NCBI RefSeq assembly: GCF_900105925.1 | Contig: NZ_LT629791.1 | Span: 5,860,001 to 5,924,000 of the forward strand | DNA from: Jiangella alkaliphila | GTDB lineage: Bacteria; Actinomycetota; Actinomycetes; Jiangellales; Jiangellaceae | Reading direction: 5' to 3' | DNA: 64,000 bases | Shown: positions 8,712-50,186 of the stretch, piece after piece | How positions within the stretch are numbered: the first letter of the stretch is position 1 | Layout: each line of letters starts with the position of its first letter | Made by a program: the position numbers and the translations under genes | Notes under the pieces: generated by a model | Told to the model about the DNA's origin: nothing | The model's database searches: none | What the model saw: the letters and a program-made list of their open reading frames with translations, nothing else

Positions 8712-8772
8712 CGCCGTGCGGCGATCCGGCTGGGGTGGCTGCAGGTGCGCCGGATGTTGCCGAGTGGGCCGT

Positions 8773-8875
8773 CCCCCTGCTGCCCATTTTCTTAGCCGCG
8801 AGGGTGCGCCTCAAGCGGACTATTGGGCGCTTCGCGCCGGCGATGACCGCTTGACCCGCACCCTCGCGGTCTAAG
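8773..8875. repeat. Palindromic unit a, left part (interrupted by the IS cassette)
   Basis: First 103 bp of a ~123-bp palindromic unit; the last 20 bp resume at 13182-13201 after the IS elements. It starts CCCCCTG, has outer arms CTTAGCCGCGAGGGTGCG / CGCACCCTCGCGGTCTAAG, a conserved inner arm TCAAGCGG / CCGCTTGA, and a central GGCGC-TTC-GCGCC hairpin. It matches unit b (13394-13514) and unit c (49005-49126), in inverted orientation at the core. Confidence 0.8.
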
Positions 8876-8926
8876 CCTCGATCCACCGACAGGTGGAGTG
8901 TCGTGGTAGGGCGTGGGAGCGTGAGA

Positions 8927-8991
8927 ATGCGCTTCTGAGCTGGGAGGATACGACTTGTCTAAGGCACGTATCGCCAGCTCAAGAAGGGCAT
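8927..8991 (+). promoter_or_regulatory. Leader hairpin that can mask the transposase ribosome site, copy 1
   Basis: Arms 8927-8943 and 8974-8991 pair (left ATGCGCTTCTGAGCTGG against right CCAGCTCAAGAAGGGCAT, one bulge, one mismatch at 8931), with an inner stem GATACG/CGTATC (8947-8952 / 8967-8972). The right arm contains AAGAAGGG, the only ribosome-site-like sequence before ATG 8999. Such structures are known in IS10 and others to block translation from read-through transcripts. Confidence 0.6.
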
Positions 8992-8998
8992 CTCGTAG

Positions 8999-10405
8999 AT
9001 GCAACTCTCTCACACCCGACCGGTCGTCTCGGCGGCCTTCGATGAGCCCAACCTCGTGTCGTCGGCGGGCCTGGTCCCGGCGATGGCCCTGGCCGGCGAG
9101 GCACGGCTGCGCGAGCTGGGCGATGAGCACCTGAGCGTGCCGACGGACAAGGGCGCCAACGCCGGGCTGAAGCTGTCGGGCCTGGTCGCCGGCATGACCG
9201 CCGGCGCGGACAGCATCGACGACATGGCCCTGCTACGCCACGGCGCGATGGGGAAGGTCTTCGCCGGCATCTACGCCCCCTCCACACTTGGCTCGTTCCT
9301 GCGCGCCTTCACCTTCGGCCATGTCCGCCAAGCCGACGCGATCGCCTCTCGGTTTCTGATCAACCTGACCCAGCGCACGGCCCTGCTGGGCGAGACCGCA
9401 GACACCGCGACGGTGATGGTCGACATCGACGACACCATCGTGGAGGTACACGGCTATCAGAAGCAGGGCGCGGGGTTCGGGTACTCCGGGGTGCGGGGCC
9501 TGAACGCCGTGCTGGCCACCGTTTCCAGCCAGACCTTCGCGCCGGTGATCGCCGCCCAGCGCCTGCGCAACGGCTCGGCCGGGTCCCCACGCGGGGCGAC
9601 GCGTCTGGCCACCGACGCCCTCGCCCTGATCCGCCGCACCCACCTGGCCGGCCGAGACGTGCTGGTCCGGGCGGACTCGGCGTTCTACTCCCACGCCCTG
9701 GTCACCGCAGCGTTGAAGGCCGGCGCGAACGTCTCGATCACCGTGCGGATGGACCCGGCGGTCAAACGCGCCATCGCCGGCATCGCCGAGACCGCCTGGA
9801 CCACGATCAAATACACCGACGCCGTCTACGACGAGACCACCAGAACATGGAACTCTCGTGCCGAGGTCGCCGAGGTTCCCTTCACCGCGTTCACCTCCAA
9901 GAACAAGACCGACCAGATCCCCGGCCGGCTCGTGGTCCGCCGTATCCCCGATCTCAACCCCCGCAACAGCGAAGGCCAGGACACGTTGTTCGATTCCTGG
10001 CGCTTCCACGCCTTCTTCACCACCACCGACACCACCGAGATGGACACCGTCGCCGCGGACCAGACCCACCGGGCCCACGCGGTCATCGAGAACGTCCACG
10101 CCGACCTCAAGGCCTCCGCGCTGGCCCACCTGCCCTCCGGGGTGTTCAACGCCAACGCGGCCTGGCTCGTCTGCGCGGTCATGGCGTTCAACCTCACCCG
10201 CGCCGCCGCGACCCTGACCAAGACCCCCACTCTGACCAGGGCGACCACCGCGACGATCCGCCGCAAACTCATCACCGTCCCCGCCCGGATCGCCACCTCC
10301 GCCCGGCGTCTGACCCTGCACCTGCCGACCAACTGGCCCTGGCAGACCGCGTGGTCCACGCTCTACAACGCCCTCTTCCCCCGGCCCGCCACGACACACA
10401 CCTGA
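8999..10405 (+). CDS. IS1380-family transposase, copy 1
   Basis: 468-residue DDE transposase. Candidate catalytic residues: Asp in VMVDIDDTIVEVHG (~residue 142), Asp in VLVRADSAFYSHAL (~224), Glu in HAVIENVHADLK (~364). The N-terminus (FDEPNLVSSAGLVPAMALA, LRELGDEHL) is the DNA-binding start typical of the family. Length and the single open frame are normal, so the gene looks intact. Its ribosome site AAGAAGGG sits 10 nt before ATG 8999 inside the 3' arm of the leader hairpin. Differs from copy 2 by Ile307 versus Val. Confidence 0.95.
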   Translation: MQLSHTRPVVSAAFDEPNLVSSAGLVPAMALAGEARLRELGDEHLSVPTDKGANAGLKLSGLVAGMTAGADSIDDMALLRHGAMGKVFAGIYAPSTLGSFLRAFTFGHVRQADAIASRFLINLTQRTALLGETADTATVMVDIDDTIVEVHGYQKQGAGFGYSGVRGLNAVLATVSSQTFAPVIAAQRLRNGSAGSPRGATRLATDALALIRRTHLAGRDVLVRADSAFYSHALVTAALKAGANVSITVRMDPAVKRAIAGIAETAWTTIKYTDAVYDETTRTWNSRAEVAEVPFTAFTSKNKTDQIPGRLVVRRIPDLNPRNSEGQDTLFDSWRFHAFFTTTDTTEMDTVAADQTHRAHAVIENVHADLKASALAHLPSGVFNANAAWLVCAVMAFNLTRAAATLTKTPTLTRATTATIRRKLITVPARIATSARRLTLHLPTNWPWQTAWSTLYNALFPRPATTHT

Positions 10406-10544
10406 CCACCAGCCCCCGCCGGCACGAGAAGGAACCCCAGTGGAAAGCCGGGCAGACCGGCAACTCACTCACACCCAACGTGATCACAACCACCTCGCCT
10501 GAAACCAGACGACGTCACCAAGCTGGTCGGTGGATCGAGGCTAA

Positions 10545-11507
10545 GAGGGCGTCTGATCCGTTGATGTTCTGGTTGTGAGGTTGGCTGGTGTTCGGGTCCT
10601 CGTTCTTGGGCGGGTGGTGTGGTAGGGCTCGTCGTTGTGATGTCCAGGGCGCCGTACCGTAGCGATCTGTCCGATGCCCGGTGGGCGCTGATCGAGCCGG
10701 TCATGTCCGGGTGGCGTGCGGCCCGGCGCGGGCTGGGGATCAGTGAGCCCGTCCATGACCTGCGAGAGATCGTCAACGCGATCTTGTACGTGAACCGGAC
10801 CGGCATCGCCTGGGAGTACTTGCCGCACGATTTCCCGCCGTTCAAGACCGTCTATGACTACTACGCCAAGTGGGAGAAGGACGGGACGACGGAGAAGATC
10901 CATGACCTGCTGCGCGGCACGGCGCGCGCAGCGGCCGGGCGGGCCAGTGAGCCCAGCGCGGCGATCCTGGACGCGCAGTCGGTGAAGACGTCGTCGAATG
11001 TGGCCGAGTCCGATCAGGGCATCGATGCGGGCAAGAAGATCAAGGGACGCAAGCGGCATATCGCCACCGACACGCTGGGGCTGCTGCTGGTGGTGTTGAT
11101 CACCGCGGCCAGCGTGCACGACACCGCAGGTGGGCGTGACCTGGTTGATCGCCTCGCCGATCGCCACGCGGGCGTGTCCAAGGCTTGGGTGGACCGCGGC
11201 TACCGCGCCAGCGTCGCCCAGCGTGGTGTCGATCGCGGTATCGACGTTCAGGTCGTCCAGAAAGACCCCGGGCTGAAGGGCTTCCACCCGACTCTGCGCT
11301 GGCCCGTGGAGCGCACCTTCGGCTGGCTGATGCTGCATCGTCGATTAGTCCGAGATTACGAGACGCTCCCAGAACGTTCCCGCACCATGATCCACTGGGC
11401 GATGATCGACAACATGAGCCGCCGGATCACCGGCGAAACCATCCAAACCTGGCGCGACGAACCAGCCAACTCAGGCGCACCCCCACAGATCTAGACCAGA
11501 CGCCCTC
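10545..11507 (+). mobile_element. IS5-family insertion sequence inserted in the IS1380 junction
   Basis: 963-bp element with ends GAGGGCGTCTGATC / GACCAGACGCCCTC (one mismatch). It is flanked by TAA at 10542-10544 and 11508-11510, a 3-bp target duplication usual for the IS427/IS1031 branch of IS5. Removing the element and one TAA restores a single CTAAG between the two IS1380 copies. Confidence 0.93.
10640..11494 (+). CDS. IS5-family transposase
   Basis: 284-residue DDE transposase starting MSRAPYRSDLSDARWALIEP, the common start of IS5-type DUF4096/DDE proteins. Catalytic Asp in AAILDAQSVKTSS, Asp in AWVDRGYR, Glu in WPVERTFGWLMLHRR (DDE with the Y-R-K-like signature replaced by R...H-R). 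The single open frame appears complete; no programmed frameshift is needed. ATG 10640 is the first start that keeps the conserved N-terminus. Confidence 0.93.
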   Translation: MSRAPYRSDLSDARWALIEPVMSGWRAARRGLGISEPVHDLREIVNAILYVNRTGIAWEYLPHDFPPFKTVYDYYAKWEKDGTTEKIHDLLRGTARAAAGRASEPSAAILDAQSVKTSSNVAESDQGIDAGKKIKGRKRHIATDTLGLLLVVLITAASVHDTAGGRDLVDRLADRHAGVSKAWVDRGYRASVAQRGVDRGIDVQVVQKDPGLKGFHPTLRWPVERTFGWLMLHRRLVRDYETLPERSRTMIHWAMIDNMSRRITGETIQTWRDEPANSGAPPQI

Positions 11508-11562
11508 TAAGCCTCGATCCACCGACAGGTGGAGTGTCGTGGTAGGGCGTGGGAGCGTGAGA

Positions 11563-11627
11563 ATGCCCTTCTGAGCTGGGAGGATACGACTTGTCTAAGG
11601 CACGTATCGCCAGCTCAAGAAGGGCAT
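11563..11627 (+). promoter_or_regulatory. Leader hairpin of the transposase, copy 2
   Basis: Same hairpin as in copy 1, but with C at 11567, which restores pairing to the GGG of the ribosome site. The left arm reads ATGCCCTTCT against AGAAGGGCAT. Confidence 0.6.
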
Positions 11628-11634
11628 CTCGTAG

Positions 11635-13041
11635 ATGCAACTCTCTCACACCCGACCGGTCGTCTCGGCGGCCTTCGATGAGCCCAACCTCGTGTCGTCG
11701 GCGGGCCTGGTCCCGGCGATGGCCCTGGCCGGCGAGGCACGGCTGCGCGAGCTGGGCGATGAGCACCTGAGCGTGCCGACGGACAAGGGCGCCAACGCCG
11801 GGCTGAAGCTGTCGGGCCTGGTCGCCGGCATGACCGCCGGCGCGGACAGCATCGACGACATGGCCCTGCTACGCCACGGCGCGATGGGGAAGGTCTTCGC
11901 CGGCATCTACGCCCCCTCCACACTTGGCTCGTTCCTGCGCGCCTTCACCTTCGGCCATGTCCGCCAAGCCGACGCGATCGCCTCTCGGTTTCTGATCAAC
12001 CTGACCCAGCGCACGGCCCTGCTGGGCGAGACCGCAGACACCGCGACGGTGATGGTCGACATCGACGACACCATCGTGGAGGTACACGGCTATCAGAAGC
12101 AGGGCGCGGGGTTCGGGTACTCCGGGGTGCGGGGCCTGAACGCCGTGCTGGCCACCGTTTCCAGCCAGACCTTCGCGCCGGTGATCGCCGCCCAGCGCCT
12201 GCGCAACGGCTCGGCCGGGTCCCCACGCGGGGCGACGCGTCTGGCCACCGACGCCCTCGCCCTGATCCGCCGCACCCACCTGGCCGGCCGAGACGTGCTG
12301 GTCCGGGCGGACTCGGCGTTCTACTCCCACGCCCTGGTCACCGCAGCGTTGAAGGCCGGCGCGAACGTCTCGATCACCGTGCGGATGGACCCGGCGGTCA
12401 AACGCGCCATCGCCGGCATCGCCGAGACCGCCTGGACCACGATCAAATACACCGACGCCGTCTACGACGAGACCACCAGAACATGGAACTCTCGTGCCGA
12501 GGTCGCCGAGGTTCCCTTCACCGCGTTCACCTCCAAGAACAAGACCGACCAGGTCCCCGGCCGGCTCGTGGTCCGCCGTATCCCCGATCTCAACCCCCGC
12601 AACAGCGAAGGCCAGGACACGTTGTTCGATTCCTGGCGCTTCCACGCCTTCTTCACCACCACCGACACCACCGAGATGGACACCGTCGCCGCGGACCAGA
12701 CCCACCGGGCCCACGCGGTCATCGAGAACGTCCACGCCGACCTCAAGGCCTCCGCGCTGGCCCACCTGCCCTCCGGGGTGTTCAACGCCAACGCGGCCTG
12801 GCTCGTCTGCGCGGTCATGGCGTTCAACCTCACCCGCGCCGCCGCGACCCTGACCAAGACCCCCACTCTGACCAGGGCGACCACCGCGACGATCCGCCGC
12901 AAACTCATCACCGTCCCCGCCCGGATCGCCACCTCCGCCCGGCGTCTGACCCTGCACCTGCCGACCAACTGGCCCTGGCAGACCGCGTGGTCCACGCTCT
13001 ACAACGCCCTCTTCCCCCGGCCCGCCACGACACACACCTGA
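11635..13041 (+). CDS. IS1380-family transposase, copy 2
   Basis: 468 residues, identical to copy 1 except Val307. Same candidate catalytic residues and start. Its leader hairpin is the fully paired version, so it may be translated less than copy 1 (inference). Confidence 0.95.
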   Translation: MQLSHTRPVVSAAFDEPNLVSSAGLVPAMALAGEARLRELGDEHLSVPTDKGANAGLKLSGLVAGMTAGADSIDDMALLRHGAMGKVFAGIYAPSTLGSFLRAFTFGHVRQADAIASRFLINLTQRTALLGETADTATVMVDIDDTIVEVHGYQKQGAGFGYSGVRGLNAVLATVSSQTFAPVIAAQRLRNGSAGSPRGATRLATDALALIRRTHLAGRDVLVRADSAFYSHALVTAALKAGANVSITVRMDPAVKRAIAGIAETAWTTIKYTDAVYDETTRTWNSRAEVAEVPFTAFTSKNKTDQVPGRLVVRRIPDLNPRNSEGQDTLFDSWRFHAFFTTTDTTEMDTVAADQTHRAHAVIENVHADLKASALAHLPSGVFNANAAWLVCAVMAFNLTRAAATLTKTPTLTRATTATIRRKLITVPARIATSARRLTLHLPTNWPWQTAWSTLYNALFPRPATTHT

Positions 13042-13181
13042 CCACCAGCCCCCGCCGGCACGAGAAGGAACCCCAGTGGAAAGCCGGGCAGACCGGCAAC
13101 TCACTCACACCCAACGTGATCACAACCACCTCGCCTGAAACCAGACGACGTCACCAAGCTGGTCGGTGGATCGAGGCTAAG

Positions 13182-13201
13182 TGCGGGCAGCTATCAGGGG
13201 G
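13182..13201. repeat. Palindromic unit a, right end
   Basis: Continuation of unit a after the IS cassette: GGGCAGCTATCAGGGGG, the inverted partner of the CCCCCTG-CTGCCC start at 8773. Confidence 0.7.
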
Positions 13202-13409
13202 ACGGGGGAAGTGCGGGCACAGCCGGCGTCCTGGGTCCACACGGCTGGCGTGCTGGTCTCAGGTCACGTCCTGGTCCTGTGTCACGCGGGGATGCCTGGT
13301 AAGCGTTTGCTGGCGTAACGGTGGACCAGGACGTGACCTGAGACCAGGACGCCGACGGCGCAGATCTGGCGGGCGTGCCCGGTTCTTCCCCGTCCCCCTG
13401 ATAGCTGCC
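13185..13409. repeat. Large nested inverted repeat between palindromic units a and b
   Basis: Outer arms 13185-13207 and 13388-13409 (GGCAGCTATCAGGGGGACGG and its complement, 22 bp perfect). Inner arms 13255-13277 and 13323-13345 (CTCAGGTCACGTCCTGGTCC core, 23 bp perfect) around a 45-bp loop. No gene is seen here. Units a and b and this stem together make a ~464-bp near-palindrome before IS insertion, with outer ends 8759-8795 and 13492-13528 also inverted copies of each other. Confidence 0.85.
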
Positions 13410-13514
13410 AGTTCTTAGGCCGCGGGCCTGCGGGTCAAGCGGTCATCGTCGCGCGAAGCGCCGATAGTCCGCTTGAGGCGCGGGTGCGCGGCTAAGAGAA
13501 TGGGCAGCAGGGGG
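13394..13514. repeat. Palindromic unit b
   Basis: 121-bp unit: CCCCCTGATAGCTG start, arms CTTAG...TCAAGCGG (13414-13442) and CCGCTTGA...CTAAG (13469-13496), core TCATCG-n-GCGCGAAGCGC, end CAGCAGGGGG. Same family as units a and c. Confidence 0.8.
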
Positions 13515-13549
13515 ACGGCCAACTCGGCAAACCCCGACGCACGGCAGGC

Positions 13550-48304: not shown

Positions 48305-48332
48305 GCCTGCCCCCTGCTGCTTTCAATTGTCG
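48305..48332. repeat. Degenerate half of the palindromic repeat unit
   Basis: GCCTGCCCCCTGCTGCTTTC...TTGTCG resembles in inverted form the end of unit c (CGACAATCGAACAGCAGGGG, from 49106). It marks the left border of the second palindrome-rich region. Confidence 0.5.
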
Positions 48333-48616
48333 GGGCCGCTCCAAGAATGGCCCCCGGCCCTAGCCCGCTCTGAGGGCTAGCTCCGCTTGCCCCTCGCCCT
48401 TCCTAGATGGCGTTCTCGGCTACCGACTCCACTGTTCGTCACCCTCCGCTGGCCACCTGCGGGGATCCTCACCCGCCGTAAGTGCACCTCACCCGCCAGA
48501 AGTACCGCATCCAGCCCCGAACCGACCCCAATTCGACCCCCAGGCGAGTGCGGAGCACCCCAAGCGAGCGAGGTGCCCCACCAAACCCGCCGGAAAGCGC
48601 TCACCCACACCCCGTT
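48333..48616. other. Non-coding stretch, left part of the second palindromic region
   Basis: No frame with a plausible start, ribosome site and composition is seen. Base composition is lower in GC3-type periodicity than in genes. Confidence 0.4.
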
Positions 48617-48866
48617 CCATGATCATCGGCGATCGACCACGTCATGGAGCCTGTTGCTGAATGAGGCTCCGTCCAGGCGAGGTGGGGGGAACAACGCGAA
48701 AACGGGCTGAAAATAGGCCCAAGTGGAGGGCCCTTGATCAAATGGCGAAAGCCCACCTCGCTGACCAGCGCCTTTGCAGCGGCCAAGTTGCCCCGTGGAT
48801 GAACATCGTTCTCATCTTTCAAAAAGCAACAGGCTCCATGGTGTGGTCGATCGCCGATGATCATGG
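48617..48866. repeat. 42-bp inverted repeat around 166 bp of non-coding sequence
   Basis: Arms 48617-48658 (CCATGATCATCGGCGATCGA...) and 48825-48866 match at 40 of 42 positions in inverted orientation. Between them are a smaller pair GCGAGGTGGG / CCCACCTCGC and no convincing gene. Confidence 0.85.
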
Positions 48867-49004
48867 GCGCGGGCAGGGGCAGAGCCAGAGGAGGCCAGCG
48901 GCCCGCCACCCACAGCGGAGTCGATCGCCAGAAGGTGCGGCCGCAAGAGGCCAGCGGAGAGCGAACAGCCAGCGGACCCGAAAGCCCGGTCCACTTTCGG
49001 AAGG

Positions 49005-49126
49005 CCCCCTGATGCTGTTCGAACGAGGGCGCGGCGGCGCGGGTCAAGCGGTCATCGATGGCGCGAAGCGCCCAACAGTCCGCTTGAGGCGCGCCGCCGC
49101 GCCCTCGACAATCGAACAGCAGGGGG
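49005..49126. repeat. Palindromic unit c
   Basis: 122-bp unit: CCCCCTGATGCTGTTCGA start, arms 49025-49051 (GAGGGCGCGGCGGCGCGGGT...) and 49080-49106 complementary with two mismatches, core TCATCGATGGCGCGAAGCGC, end TCGAACAGCAGGGGG. Core and inner arms TCAAGCGG / CCGCTTGA are shared with units a and b 36 kb away. Confidence 0.85.
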
Positions 49127-49146: not shown

Positions 49147-50097
49147 TCAGGACCCGGCGAAGTGATCATGCCCGGCCGGCTGGTCATACTCCGCCCCACC
49201 AACGGTGACGCCAGAACCGGCGGAGACCGAGCCGATCACCGTCCACCGCTCAGGGAGCTCCACGTCCGCCGGGAACGTCGCCACCAGGGCGTTGTCGTCC
49301 CCGCCCGTCAGCACCCAAGCCAGCGGATCGGCCCCCAGCGCCGACGCGACCTCACGCAGGGGCTCCGCCACCACCAGCAGCGACGGCGAGACGTCGATCA
49401 GGACGCCGCTGGCGGTGGCGACGTGGCCGAGGTCGCCGAGCAGGCCGTCGCTGACGTCGCACATGGCGGTCGCGCCCAGCCCCGCGGCCTCCGCCCCCGC
49501 CCCATAGGGGACCGCGGGCCGCCGATGCGCCTCGACGACGGCGCGGGGGGTGCGGAAGCCGCGGCTGAGCACCTGGTAGCCGGCCTCCGCCCAGCCGAGC
49601 CGCCCGCACAGCGCGACCACGTCGCCCGCGCGCGCCCCCGACCGCAGAACCGGCGCGGCACCGGCCAGCGTCCCCAGCGCCGTCACCGACACCACCACGA
49701 GCGGCGAGCGCACGACGTCGCCGCCGACGACGGAGGCGCCGACGAGCGCGGCCTCCTCGCCCAGCCCGGCCGACAGCTCGACCGCCCACGACACGGGCAG
49801 GTCGGCCGGCACCCCCAGCCCCACCACCAGCGACGTCGGGCGGGCGCCCATGGCCTCGATGTCGGAGAGGTTCTGGGCGGCCGCCTTGTGGCCGACGTCG
49901 GCGGCGGCGGACCAGTCGCGGCGGAAGTGCCGGTTCTCGACCAGCAGGTCGGTCGTCACCACCACCCGGCCGTCGGGCGCGGCGACCACGGCGGAGTCGT
50001 CGCCGGGGCCGAGGAGGACGTCCGGGCCCTGCGGCAGGCGCGCCGTCACGGCACCGATGAGGCCGAACTCTCCGAGCTCGCCAACGCTGTCGGGCAT
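49147..50097 (-). CDS. thiL: Thiamine-monophosphate kinase
   Basis: 316-residue kinase of the last step of thiamine diphosphate synthesis. N-terminal GDDSAVV motif (VLLGPGDDSAVVAAP), TTDLLVENRHFRRDW, KAAAQNLSDIEAMGARPTSL, and MCDVSDGLLGDLGHVA; late GGDDNALVATF. GGGAG lies 8 nt before ATG 50097. Its 3' end is 21 bp from palindromic unit c. It is divergent from the AsnC-like gene. The TPP-enzyme at 15.9 kb needs its product. Confidence 0.95.
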   Translation of the reverse strand: MPDSVGELGEFGLIGAVTARLPQGPDVLLGPGDDSAVVAAPDGRVVVTTDLLVENRHFRRDWSAAADVGHKAAAQNLSDIEAMGARPTSLVVGLGVPADLPVSWAVELSAGLGEEAALVGASVVGGDVVRSPLVVVSVTALGTLAGAAPVLRSGARAGDVVALCGRLGWAEAGYQVLSRGFRTPRAVVEAHRRPAVPYGAGAEAAGLGATAMCDVSDGLLGDLGHVATASGVLIDVSPSLLVVAEPLREVASALGADPLAWVLTGGDDNALVATFPADVELPERWTVIGSVSAGSGVTVGGAEYDQPAGHDHFAGS

Positions 50098-50186
50098 TCT
50101 GTGCACTCCCTCTTCTCCCGCACGATTACTCGACCAGGTAGGTTGACCGTTCGCACACTTCAATGCACGCGTGGGAGGGCAATCCC

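Follow-up and report, generated by a model that had tools for sequence, protein, structure and literature searches.

A long DNA hairpin of Streptomyces and its relatives, often on transferable elements, has probably become a chromosome-wide repeat in Jiangella

A stretch of 64,000 nt from Jiangella alkaliphila (the window) contains three long palindromic units of about 122 nt, and the question they raise is what such units are and how they came to be there. The initial annotation described them as three copies of one palindrome at two loci (units a, b and c), whose arms change in sequence while keeping their pairing, and likened them to REP/BIME or transposase-mobilised hairpins. The units lie where it put them, within a few bases, though the picture of three copies has to be recast: units a and b together bound one composite element as its inverted ends, and unit c ends a second. 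The boundaries proposed for the units also proved too narrow, as the shared sequence continues for about 30 bp past the outer end CAGCAGGGGG and inward into the spacer as well. The features of the window, with scores for the covariance models R1 and R3 described below, are as follows.

8768-13519, no strand: composite element 1, made of unit a (-), a spacer and unit b (+), with three nested insertion sequences inside
8773-8875, - strand: unit a, a T1-type end hairpin, portion left of the insertions (R1, 110.5 bits)
8876-13176, + strand: insertions in the CTAAG of the unit a stem, IS1380-type, then IS5-type, then IS1380-type
13177-13201, - strand: remainder of unit a right of the insertions (CTAAGTGCGGGCAGCTATCAGGGGG), from reading the sequence
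13202-13391, no strand: spacer of composite element 1, with an internal inverted repeat (13247-13287 with 13313-13353, 88% complementary)
13394-13514, + strand: unit b, a T1-type end hairpin (R1, 143.8 bits; R3, E 9.4e-8)
48310-49126, no strand: composite element 2, unit c being its right end; boundaries read by eye
48617-48866, no strand: spacer module of composite element 2, with 42-bp arms (48617-48658 and 48825-48866) that are 95% complementary
49005-49126, + strand: unit c, a T1-type end hairpin of a second subfamily (R1, 128.9 bits; R3, E 3.9e-5)
49060-49072, + strand: tip mini-hairpin of unit c, GGCGC-GAA-GCGCC, from reading the sequence

Element 1 is matched by the covariance model at 8768-8899 (-) and 13391-13519 (+), with outer ends facing inward at 8770-8787 and 13500-13517. 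It carries the T1 type at both ends and is about 450 bp long once the insertions at 8876-13176 are removed. The tip of unit a is GGCGCTTCGCGCC, with a GAA triloop on the - strand, and its match to R3 is weak, at only 24.6 bits (E 0.0054). Copies of CTAAG at 8871, 10541, 11507 and 13177 bracket the three insertions (window 8871-13181), the products of which are of IS1380 type (468 aa, PF13701) and IS5 type (291 aa, DUF4096). The same CTTAG/CTAAG is the point of interruption in the copies L006, L012, L164 and L166, so the stem seems to be a hot spot for insertions. Element 2 lies between the gene for ribosomal protein L28 (47894-48220, +) and an AIR-synthase-like gene (49147-50163, -), and its left arm (48310-48319) appears by eye to be an eroded remnant without a tip. 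The core GGCGCGAAGCGCC is a mini-hairpin with a GAA triloop that tops the long stem. Folded as DNA, unit c reaches -58.8 kcal/mol (z -10.1) and unit b -46.4 kcal/mol (z -7.1), and in neither case were any of 200 shuffles as stable.

Allowing up to two mismatches, the outer end CGTCCCCCTGCTGCCCAT was found 80 times (37 forward, 43 reverse), and 60 of these ends form 30 inward-facing pairs within 6 kb; among the 80 there are no outward-facing pairs within that distance and one pair in the same direction. Fourteen inward pairs are 356-672 bp long and 16 span 1.4-4.7 kb, and those of the stretched pairs that were read contain insertion sequences. Two types of end occur: T1, with the tip GTCAAGCGG..GCGC-GAA-GCGC..CCGCTTGA, and T2, in which a C/A-rich open loop of about 35-45 nt lies between GTCAAGTCC and GGACTTGA. 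The spacers hold further inverted repeats (modules M1-M5), and all eight compact elements with detected M1, M2 and both tips keep the order T1-M1-M2-(M4)-T2, other orders being T1-M3-T2 (two elements) and T1-M5-T2 (one). The repeats thus have a paired, polar composite architecture, and we count the 30 inward pairs, the absence of outward ones and the fixed order of modules in favour of reading the units as ends of composite elements.

The initial annotation had let its case depend on further copies and on covariation among them, and copies are plentiful: the 7.7-Mb genome of the window contains the core pattern 24 times without mismatch and the reversed pattern not once. Model R1, built from 20 copies of this genome and hence from Jiangella only, lists 104 matches there at E<=0.01, counting both strands and the second hairpin type. 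By this model, ten of 12 Jiangella genomes, this one included, contain the family and none of 48 genomes of other relatives does; the two Jiangella genomes without T1/T2 repeats are G003 and G006. Four interrupted copies of the same genome (L006, L012, L015 and L018) were left out of one alignment (A2), and a further model (R2) was set aside, its automatic structure being poor. A scan of public genome contigs with the pattern returned 81 stretches, all in four named Jiangella species, and no match was found among viral contigs searched with the core pattern, nor among phages or plasmids searched with the Jiangella unit. The initial annotation knew of no named family of this kind, and indeed no Rfam family matches the unit at its gathering score; for unit c a permissive threshold gave 12 sub-threshold matches, the best of them to a plant-type microRNA model (42.4 bits, gathering 150). 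Among the matches listed from open-licence papers, there is no description of this hairpin or of any Jiangella repeat family.

An Rfam scan of the whole window gave a single match, which falls within an insertion sequence: positions 11513-11631 (-), at the upstream end of an IS1380-type copy, match the sRNA family Ms_IGR-7 (47.1 bits, gathering 45). Insertion sequences may carry this family.

From 112 distinct T1 copies in several Jiangella genomes, 60 were aligned (alignment A3, with 52 left out), and 97.0% of the cells pair. Twelve pairs are changed on both sides and 117 cells covary, compared to shuffle means of 6.0 and 39.0 that none of 500 shuffles raised to the observed values; control structures slid along the alignment gave 5-9 pairs and 20-31 cells. 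The compensatory change first seen in three units is that of a dispersed family, with stem covariation above all shuffles. The centre of the T1 stem is variable, the collar TCAAGCGG/CCGCTTGA and the CCCTG base pairs are invariant, and so is the A of an AT bulge in the inner arm (60 of 60 rows). Triloops are nearly uniform over 144 distinct tips (GAA in 140, GCA in 2, GGA in 1), one tip falling outside the pattern. Long quasi-palindromes are prone to template-switch correction, and covariation might then be a by-product of the repair of one arm from the other rather than of selection on the fold. We consider this very improbable, given that asymmetric unpaired bases such as the bulged A survive in every row and that similar unpaired motifs recur in other genera.

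The elements are apparently mobile, in agreement with that part of the initial annotation. Ten sites were queried for orthologous loci, and seven of them were read (L030, L037 and L043 being left out); a T1 or T2 tip is present in only 6 of the 47 loci read, the sites being empty or differently filled. For instance, at site L026 the tip is found in none of 11 loci, with both flanks aligned in four and 81 bp between them in genome G001, and at L045 in none of eight, with both flanks aligned in all and three of them leaving gaps of 25, 29 and 38 bp. Sites L029 (0 of 4), L040 (0 of 1) and L032 (0 of 1) likewise have no tip, and L038 and L028 have it in 3 of 11 each (G002, G008 and G011; G002, G005 and G008), the spacer module in G002 appearing different by eye. 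Some orthologous gaps contain other palindromic modules alone. A separate observation is that M2 stands by itself between two convergent genes of G001 (L223, 2400-2592 in reverse-complement coordinates), so the spacer modules are dispersed palindromes in their own right. For 53 of 55 composites, unevenly sampled from four genomes (33, 15, 4 and 3), the nearest relative lies within the set of the same genome, and the best full-length match between two composites has 92.5% identity.

No sign of target duplication was seen in 33 elements: the longest word shared by the flanks 20-70 bp outside is 5.79 for matched and 5.71 for mismatched pairs. Next to the ends, within the conserved zone, the values are 4.58 and 4.24, and we count this slight excess against the explanation favoured below, though the zone is conserved anyway. 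The 17 ORFs scanned within stretched pairs all match ordinary insertion-sequence transposase families (IS1380, IS5, IS3, IS256/Mutator, or a transposase-type helix-turn-helix only), one of them (L239:930-1574) below the curated cut-off, and among these ORFs, from a subset of pairs and genomes, no autonomous unit with the ends of the composites was seen. Insertion sequences use the composites as landing sites. Classical MITEs, whose outer ends are recognised by the DDE transposase that moves them, would also be non-coding, with inverted ends, many copies and empty sites, and a compact length of 0.36-0.67 kb suits them. We nevertheless think such an origin rather improbable: the ends in Jiangella, unlike those of MITEs, are structured hairpins with conserved unpaired bases, the 33 elements lack the duplication, and every one of the 17 inner ORFs scanned belongs to an ordinary insertion sequence.

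Dispersal by a RAYT (Y1) transposase, the REP/BIME comparison of the initial annotation, is the least credible of the alternatives. BIMEs are paired inverted palindromes with mosaic modules and species specificity, according to PMC2817692, and the Jiangella repeats share this and their place outside genes with REPINs. REP elements are defined there as short palindromes with a GT(A/G)G head, in contrast to a unit of about 122 nt, the aligned copies of which showed no such head on inspection by eye, and the parent we propose for the latter is a hairpin of integrative elements. The RAYT gene that the initial annotation suggested looking for did not turn up: the Y1 family PF01797 was not found in any of the 12 Jiangella genomes, while the same search was positive in 5 of 14 control genomes, and the REP/BIME reading is not supported. 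The IS91-type Y2 transposase (PF04986) also gave nothing in the 12 genomes, an uninformative result as the controls were silent too. Neither the Y1 search of the 12 genomes nor the 17 ORFs identified a mobilising enzyme, and we count this against the explanation favoured below.

The composites might instead be domesticated two-way terminators or insulators that act as RNA and were selected between convergent genes. Of 38 composites, 20 do sit in convergent gaps, 15 in tandem and 1 in divergent ones, with 2 unclassified, and a further sample gives 24 convergent cases among 62 gene gaps with a tip compared to 53 among 277 without (Fisher p 0.002), counts that come from a simple GC3-based gene caller and include some doubtful "tandem" cases at distance 0-1. 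We find this an unlikely reading all the same, since a tip occurs at only 6 of the 47 orthologous loci, tips retain GNA triloops, and an ordered hairpin chain of 500 bp is unnecessary for termination. At one of the orthologous convergent gaps, two other Jiangella genomes have unrelated tandem repeats (L197, 651-1462, and L200, 953-1462, in reverse-complement coordinates), so the repeats gathered there differ from species to species.

A wider search, in which 8 candidates were scored per genome, bears on the origin of the units. Across 393 genomes of the class Actinomycetes, R1 detects the ten Jiangella genomes and one other (G171, E 3e-5), the hairpin of which has a similar base and similar unpaired motifs but a three-pronged tip. 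Relatives of this hairpin, of about 137 nt, occur on 20 plasmid records (Streptomyces 16, Kocuria 2, and Pseudonocardia and Mycobacterium), 15 of which have no annotated feature beneath the match. Model R3 was built on 3 genomic and 11 plasmid hairpins of this kind, with none from Jiangella among the 14 (alignment A5), and its structure was specified by hand. In A5, 16 pairs are changed on both sides and 47 cells covary, compared to 9.6 and 17.4 in shuffles, while for further pair types 12 of 500 shuffles reach as high. A Pseudonocardia plasmid hairpin (L260), left out of A5 because its single-sequence fold went elsewhere, is found by R3 with 75.8 bits (E 6.6e-14). At E<=1e-4, again with 8 candidates scored per genome, R3 detects hairpins in 74 of the 393 genomes and 27 of 137 genera, 12 of the 74 being Jiangella.

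Each of the two separately trained models finds the family of the other. Of 28 Jiangella repeat loci, R3 matches 23 at E<=1e-4. Of 44 wide-family loci, R1 matches 19 at E<=0.01; in this set of 44, seven are the wide forms of Jiangella itself, L256 and L273 are one place, and L275 was omitted as the same place as L253. Unpaired motifs are common to T1/T2 and the Jiangella wide forms (CCATTCT in 6 of 9, GGCAGCTAT in 4 of 9), and asymmetric loops recur across the aligned genera. Pairing is conserved while sequence changes in both families, and the homology of the Jiangella repeats with the wide family, together with structural constraint, is well supported. We count the covariation in A3 and A5, the cross-detection and the common unpaired motifs in favour of descent from the wide hairpin. 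The three-pronged GNA tip of the wide family is absent from both Jiangella types, T1 having one GNA mini-hairpin and T2 a long open loop; we read these tips as a derived form, and count the difference against the favoured explanation.

RNA hairpins usually end in loops other than GNA, and the tips of the wide family are strongly enriched in GNA triloops, read on one strand. In 45 wide-family loci, 101 of 123 mini-hairpin triloops are GNA (GAA 35, GCA 30, GTA 29, GGA 7), read on the GNA-richer strand, which favours GNA, and with L253/L275 and L256/L273 counted twice; for comparison, 45 of 614 triloops in the window are GNA or TNC. We take this excess as selection on a folded DNA strand, and the loops suggest that the working form of the hairpin is folded single-stranded DNA. 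GNA and GNNA loops give very stable DNA mini-hairpins (PMC4686876), and the tip loops obey the same GNA rule as d(GCGAAGC)-type mini-hairpins, which are laboratory structures there and a genomic element here. A rule with G and A fixed, the middle base free and one strand preferred would be unusual genomic evidence for a single-stranded DNA rather than an RNA reading.

In Jiangella the wide form lies near genes for RepSA. Of the wide-form matches listed (34 of 50), 23 are within 15 kb of RepSA, at 2.4 to 12.2 kb from the nearest gene, and 23 of 34 Jiangella RepSA genes have a wide-form hairpin within 15 kb among the matches listed. At E<=0.01 the other 11 RepSA regions comprise one with a full-length hit, six with tip-only hits and four with none. 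The T1 repeats behave differently, none of the best 38 in the genome of the window being within 15 kb of RepSA. Eleven of the 34 listed hits have no RepSA gene within 15 kb, at least one of them being a T1 repeat (G011:C84). The genomes G003 and G006 also have RepSA and the wide form and yet lack the repeats, so RepSA does not explain the amplification and a further factor is needed.

A second setting of this kind is the family f18, where RepSA is found beside the hairpin at five loci (L293, L295, L296, L299 and L301), a tyrosine integrase at six (L281, L293, L295, L296, L298 and L301; L299 was outside the integrase scan) and an FtsK-type gene at L281, while the one ORF scanned at L292 gave nothing. 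The f18 hairpin has a small gene on one side and the integrase gene on the other, and no plasmid matched it. Next to hairpin and integrase are proteins of one family (99-128 aa) for which Pfam gave no match (L281, 1170-1469; L293, 1170-1469; L296, 1666-1965 (-); L301, 1082-1468). The pSAM2-type AICEs (RepSA, tyrosine integrase, TraB/FtsK) of Jiangella and f18 appear to bear the wide-form hairpin, whereas the words hairpin, sso and palindrom- are missing from the AICE survey (PMC3218068, main text).

The element pSAM2 replicates as a rolling circle through RepSA (PMC3218068, main text), and such an element must therefore make a second strand. The favoured candidate for the function of the wide hairpin is a single-strand origin (sso), like sti of pIJ101, the sso of pSN22 and sso1 of ICEBs1, all of them folded hairpins on rolling-circle elements expected to act as single-stranded DNA; sso1 of ICEBs1 is predicted to form three stem-loops (PMC4595007). 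A single-strand fold with asymmetric unpaired bases, as expected of an sso, is conserved here, and the Pseudonocardia plasmid hairpin starts upstream of a rep gene, at a distance of about 170 bp. We count the class-wide presence, the GNA triloops, the proximity to RepSA, this rep neighbour and the ICEBs1 precedent in favour of the sso reading. Two results count against it: hairpins lie within 1.5 kb of RepSA at none of 30 loci of other genera (E<=0.1), and pIJ101, which has a known sso, sti (PMC4170104), has no match to R3 (best 9.9 bits, E 1.3). Also unlike a known sso, the wide form has three GNA mini-hairpins at its tip. In 12 plasmid regions the neighbours are varied (rep, a TraM-domain gene, a MobF relaxase, terminal protein, metabolic and regulatory genes), and several of the hairpin-bearing plasmids are linear; we count the varied neighbours and the 11 of 34 hits with no RepSA within 15 kb against the favoured explanation. 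The same holds for the scope of the Jiangella figures (34 listed hits out of 50, 8 candidates scored per genome) and for the presence of RepSA and the wide form in the repeat-free G003 and G006.

The wide form could also be another single-stranded site of elements and plasmids, such as a transfer or termination signal, an attC-like recombination substrate, or a single-stranded promoter for an integrase. The position of the f18 hairpin next to an integrase gene would suit this, as would the recurrence of asymmetric loops in the aligned genera, which a protein-recognised fold would need. Distances of 2.4-12.2 kb to RepSA in Jiangella suit a position-independent origin better, and no cassette array was noticed on incidental reading of the loci, leaving this a possibility to which we attach a minor weight.

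The explanation we favour, with about even chances of being right, is that the Jiangella units are end hairpins of composites that descend from a hairpin of RepSA elements and plasmids acting on single-stranded DNA, most likely an sso. The parent would be the hairpin, about 137 nt long, found widely across the Actinomycetes, carried on pSAM2-type (RepSA) elements in Jiangella and f18 and also on plasmids, and it would act as folded single-stranded DNA, most likely priming the second strand after rolling-circle replication. We infer that descent ran from the element hairpin to the chromosomal repeat and not the reverse. The non-coding composites in Jiangella chromosomes would then be non-autonomous passengers whose spread went through a single-stranded (rolling-circle or HUH-type) intermediate. 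Copies may often have settled between convergent genes, where they would do least harm, and may double there as two-way terminators. If this is right, Jiangella shows a mobile-element replication signal turning into a genome-wide repeat without a dedicated transposase. A bolder statement, which we put forward tentatively and at less than even chances, is that the Actinomycetes share an undescribed single-stranded DNA element with a three-pronged GNA tip that serves rolling-circle elements and plasmids, and that it escaped in Jiangella as a new polar hairpin-chain repeat with single-stranded spread, no transposase of its own and no target duplication. As the hairpin is found by structure in 74 of 393 genomes, it offers a direct and inexpensive handle for testing the proposed role in second-strand synthesis.

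An Rfam search of eight wide-family loci gave only a group II intron. It is found at locus L253 (318-790), where the wide-family hairpin lies a few hundred bases from the intron end. Inspection by eye also places a tRNA-like 3' end nearby, as would be the case for an integrated element.
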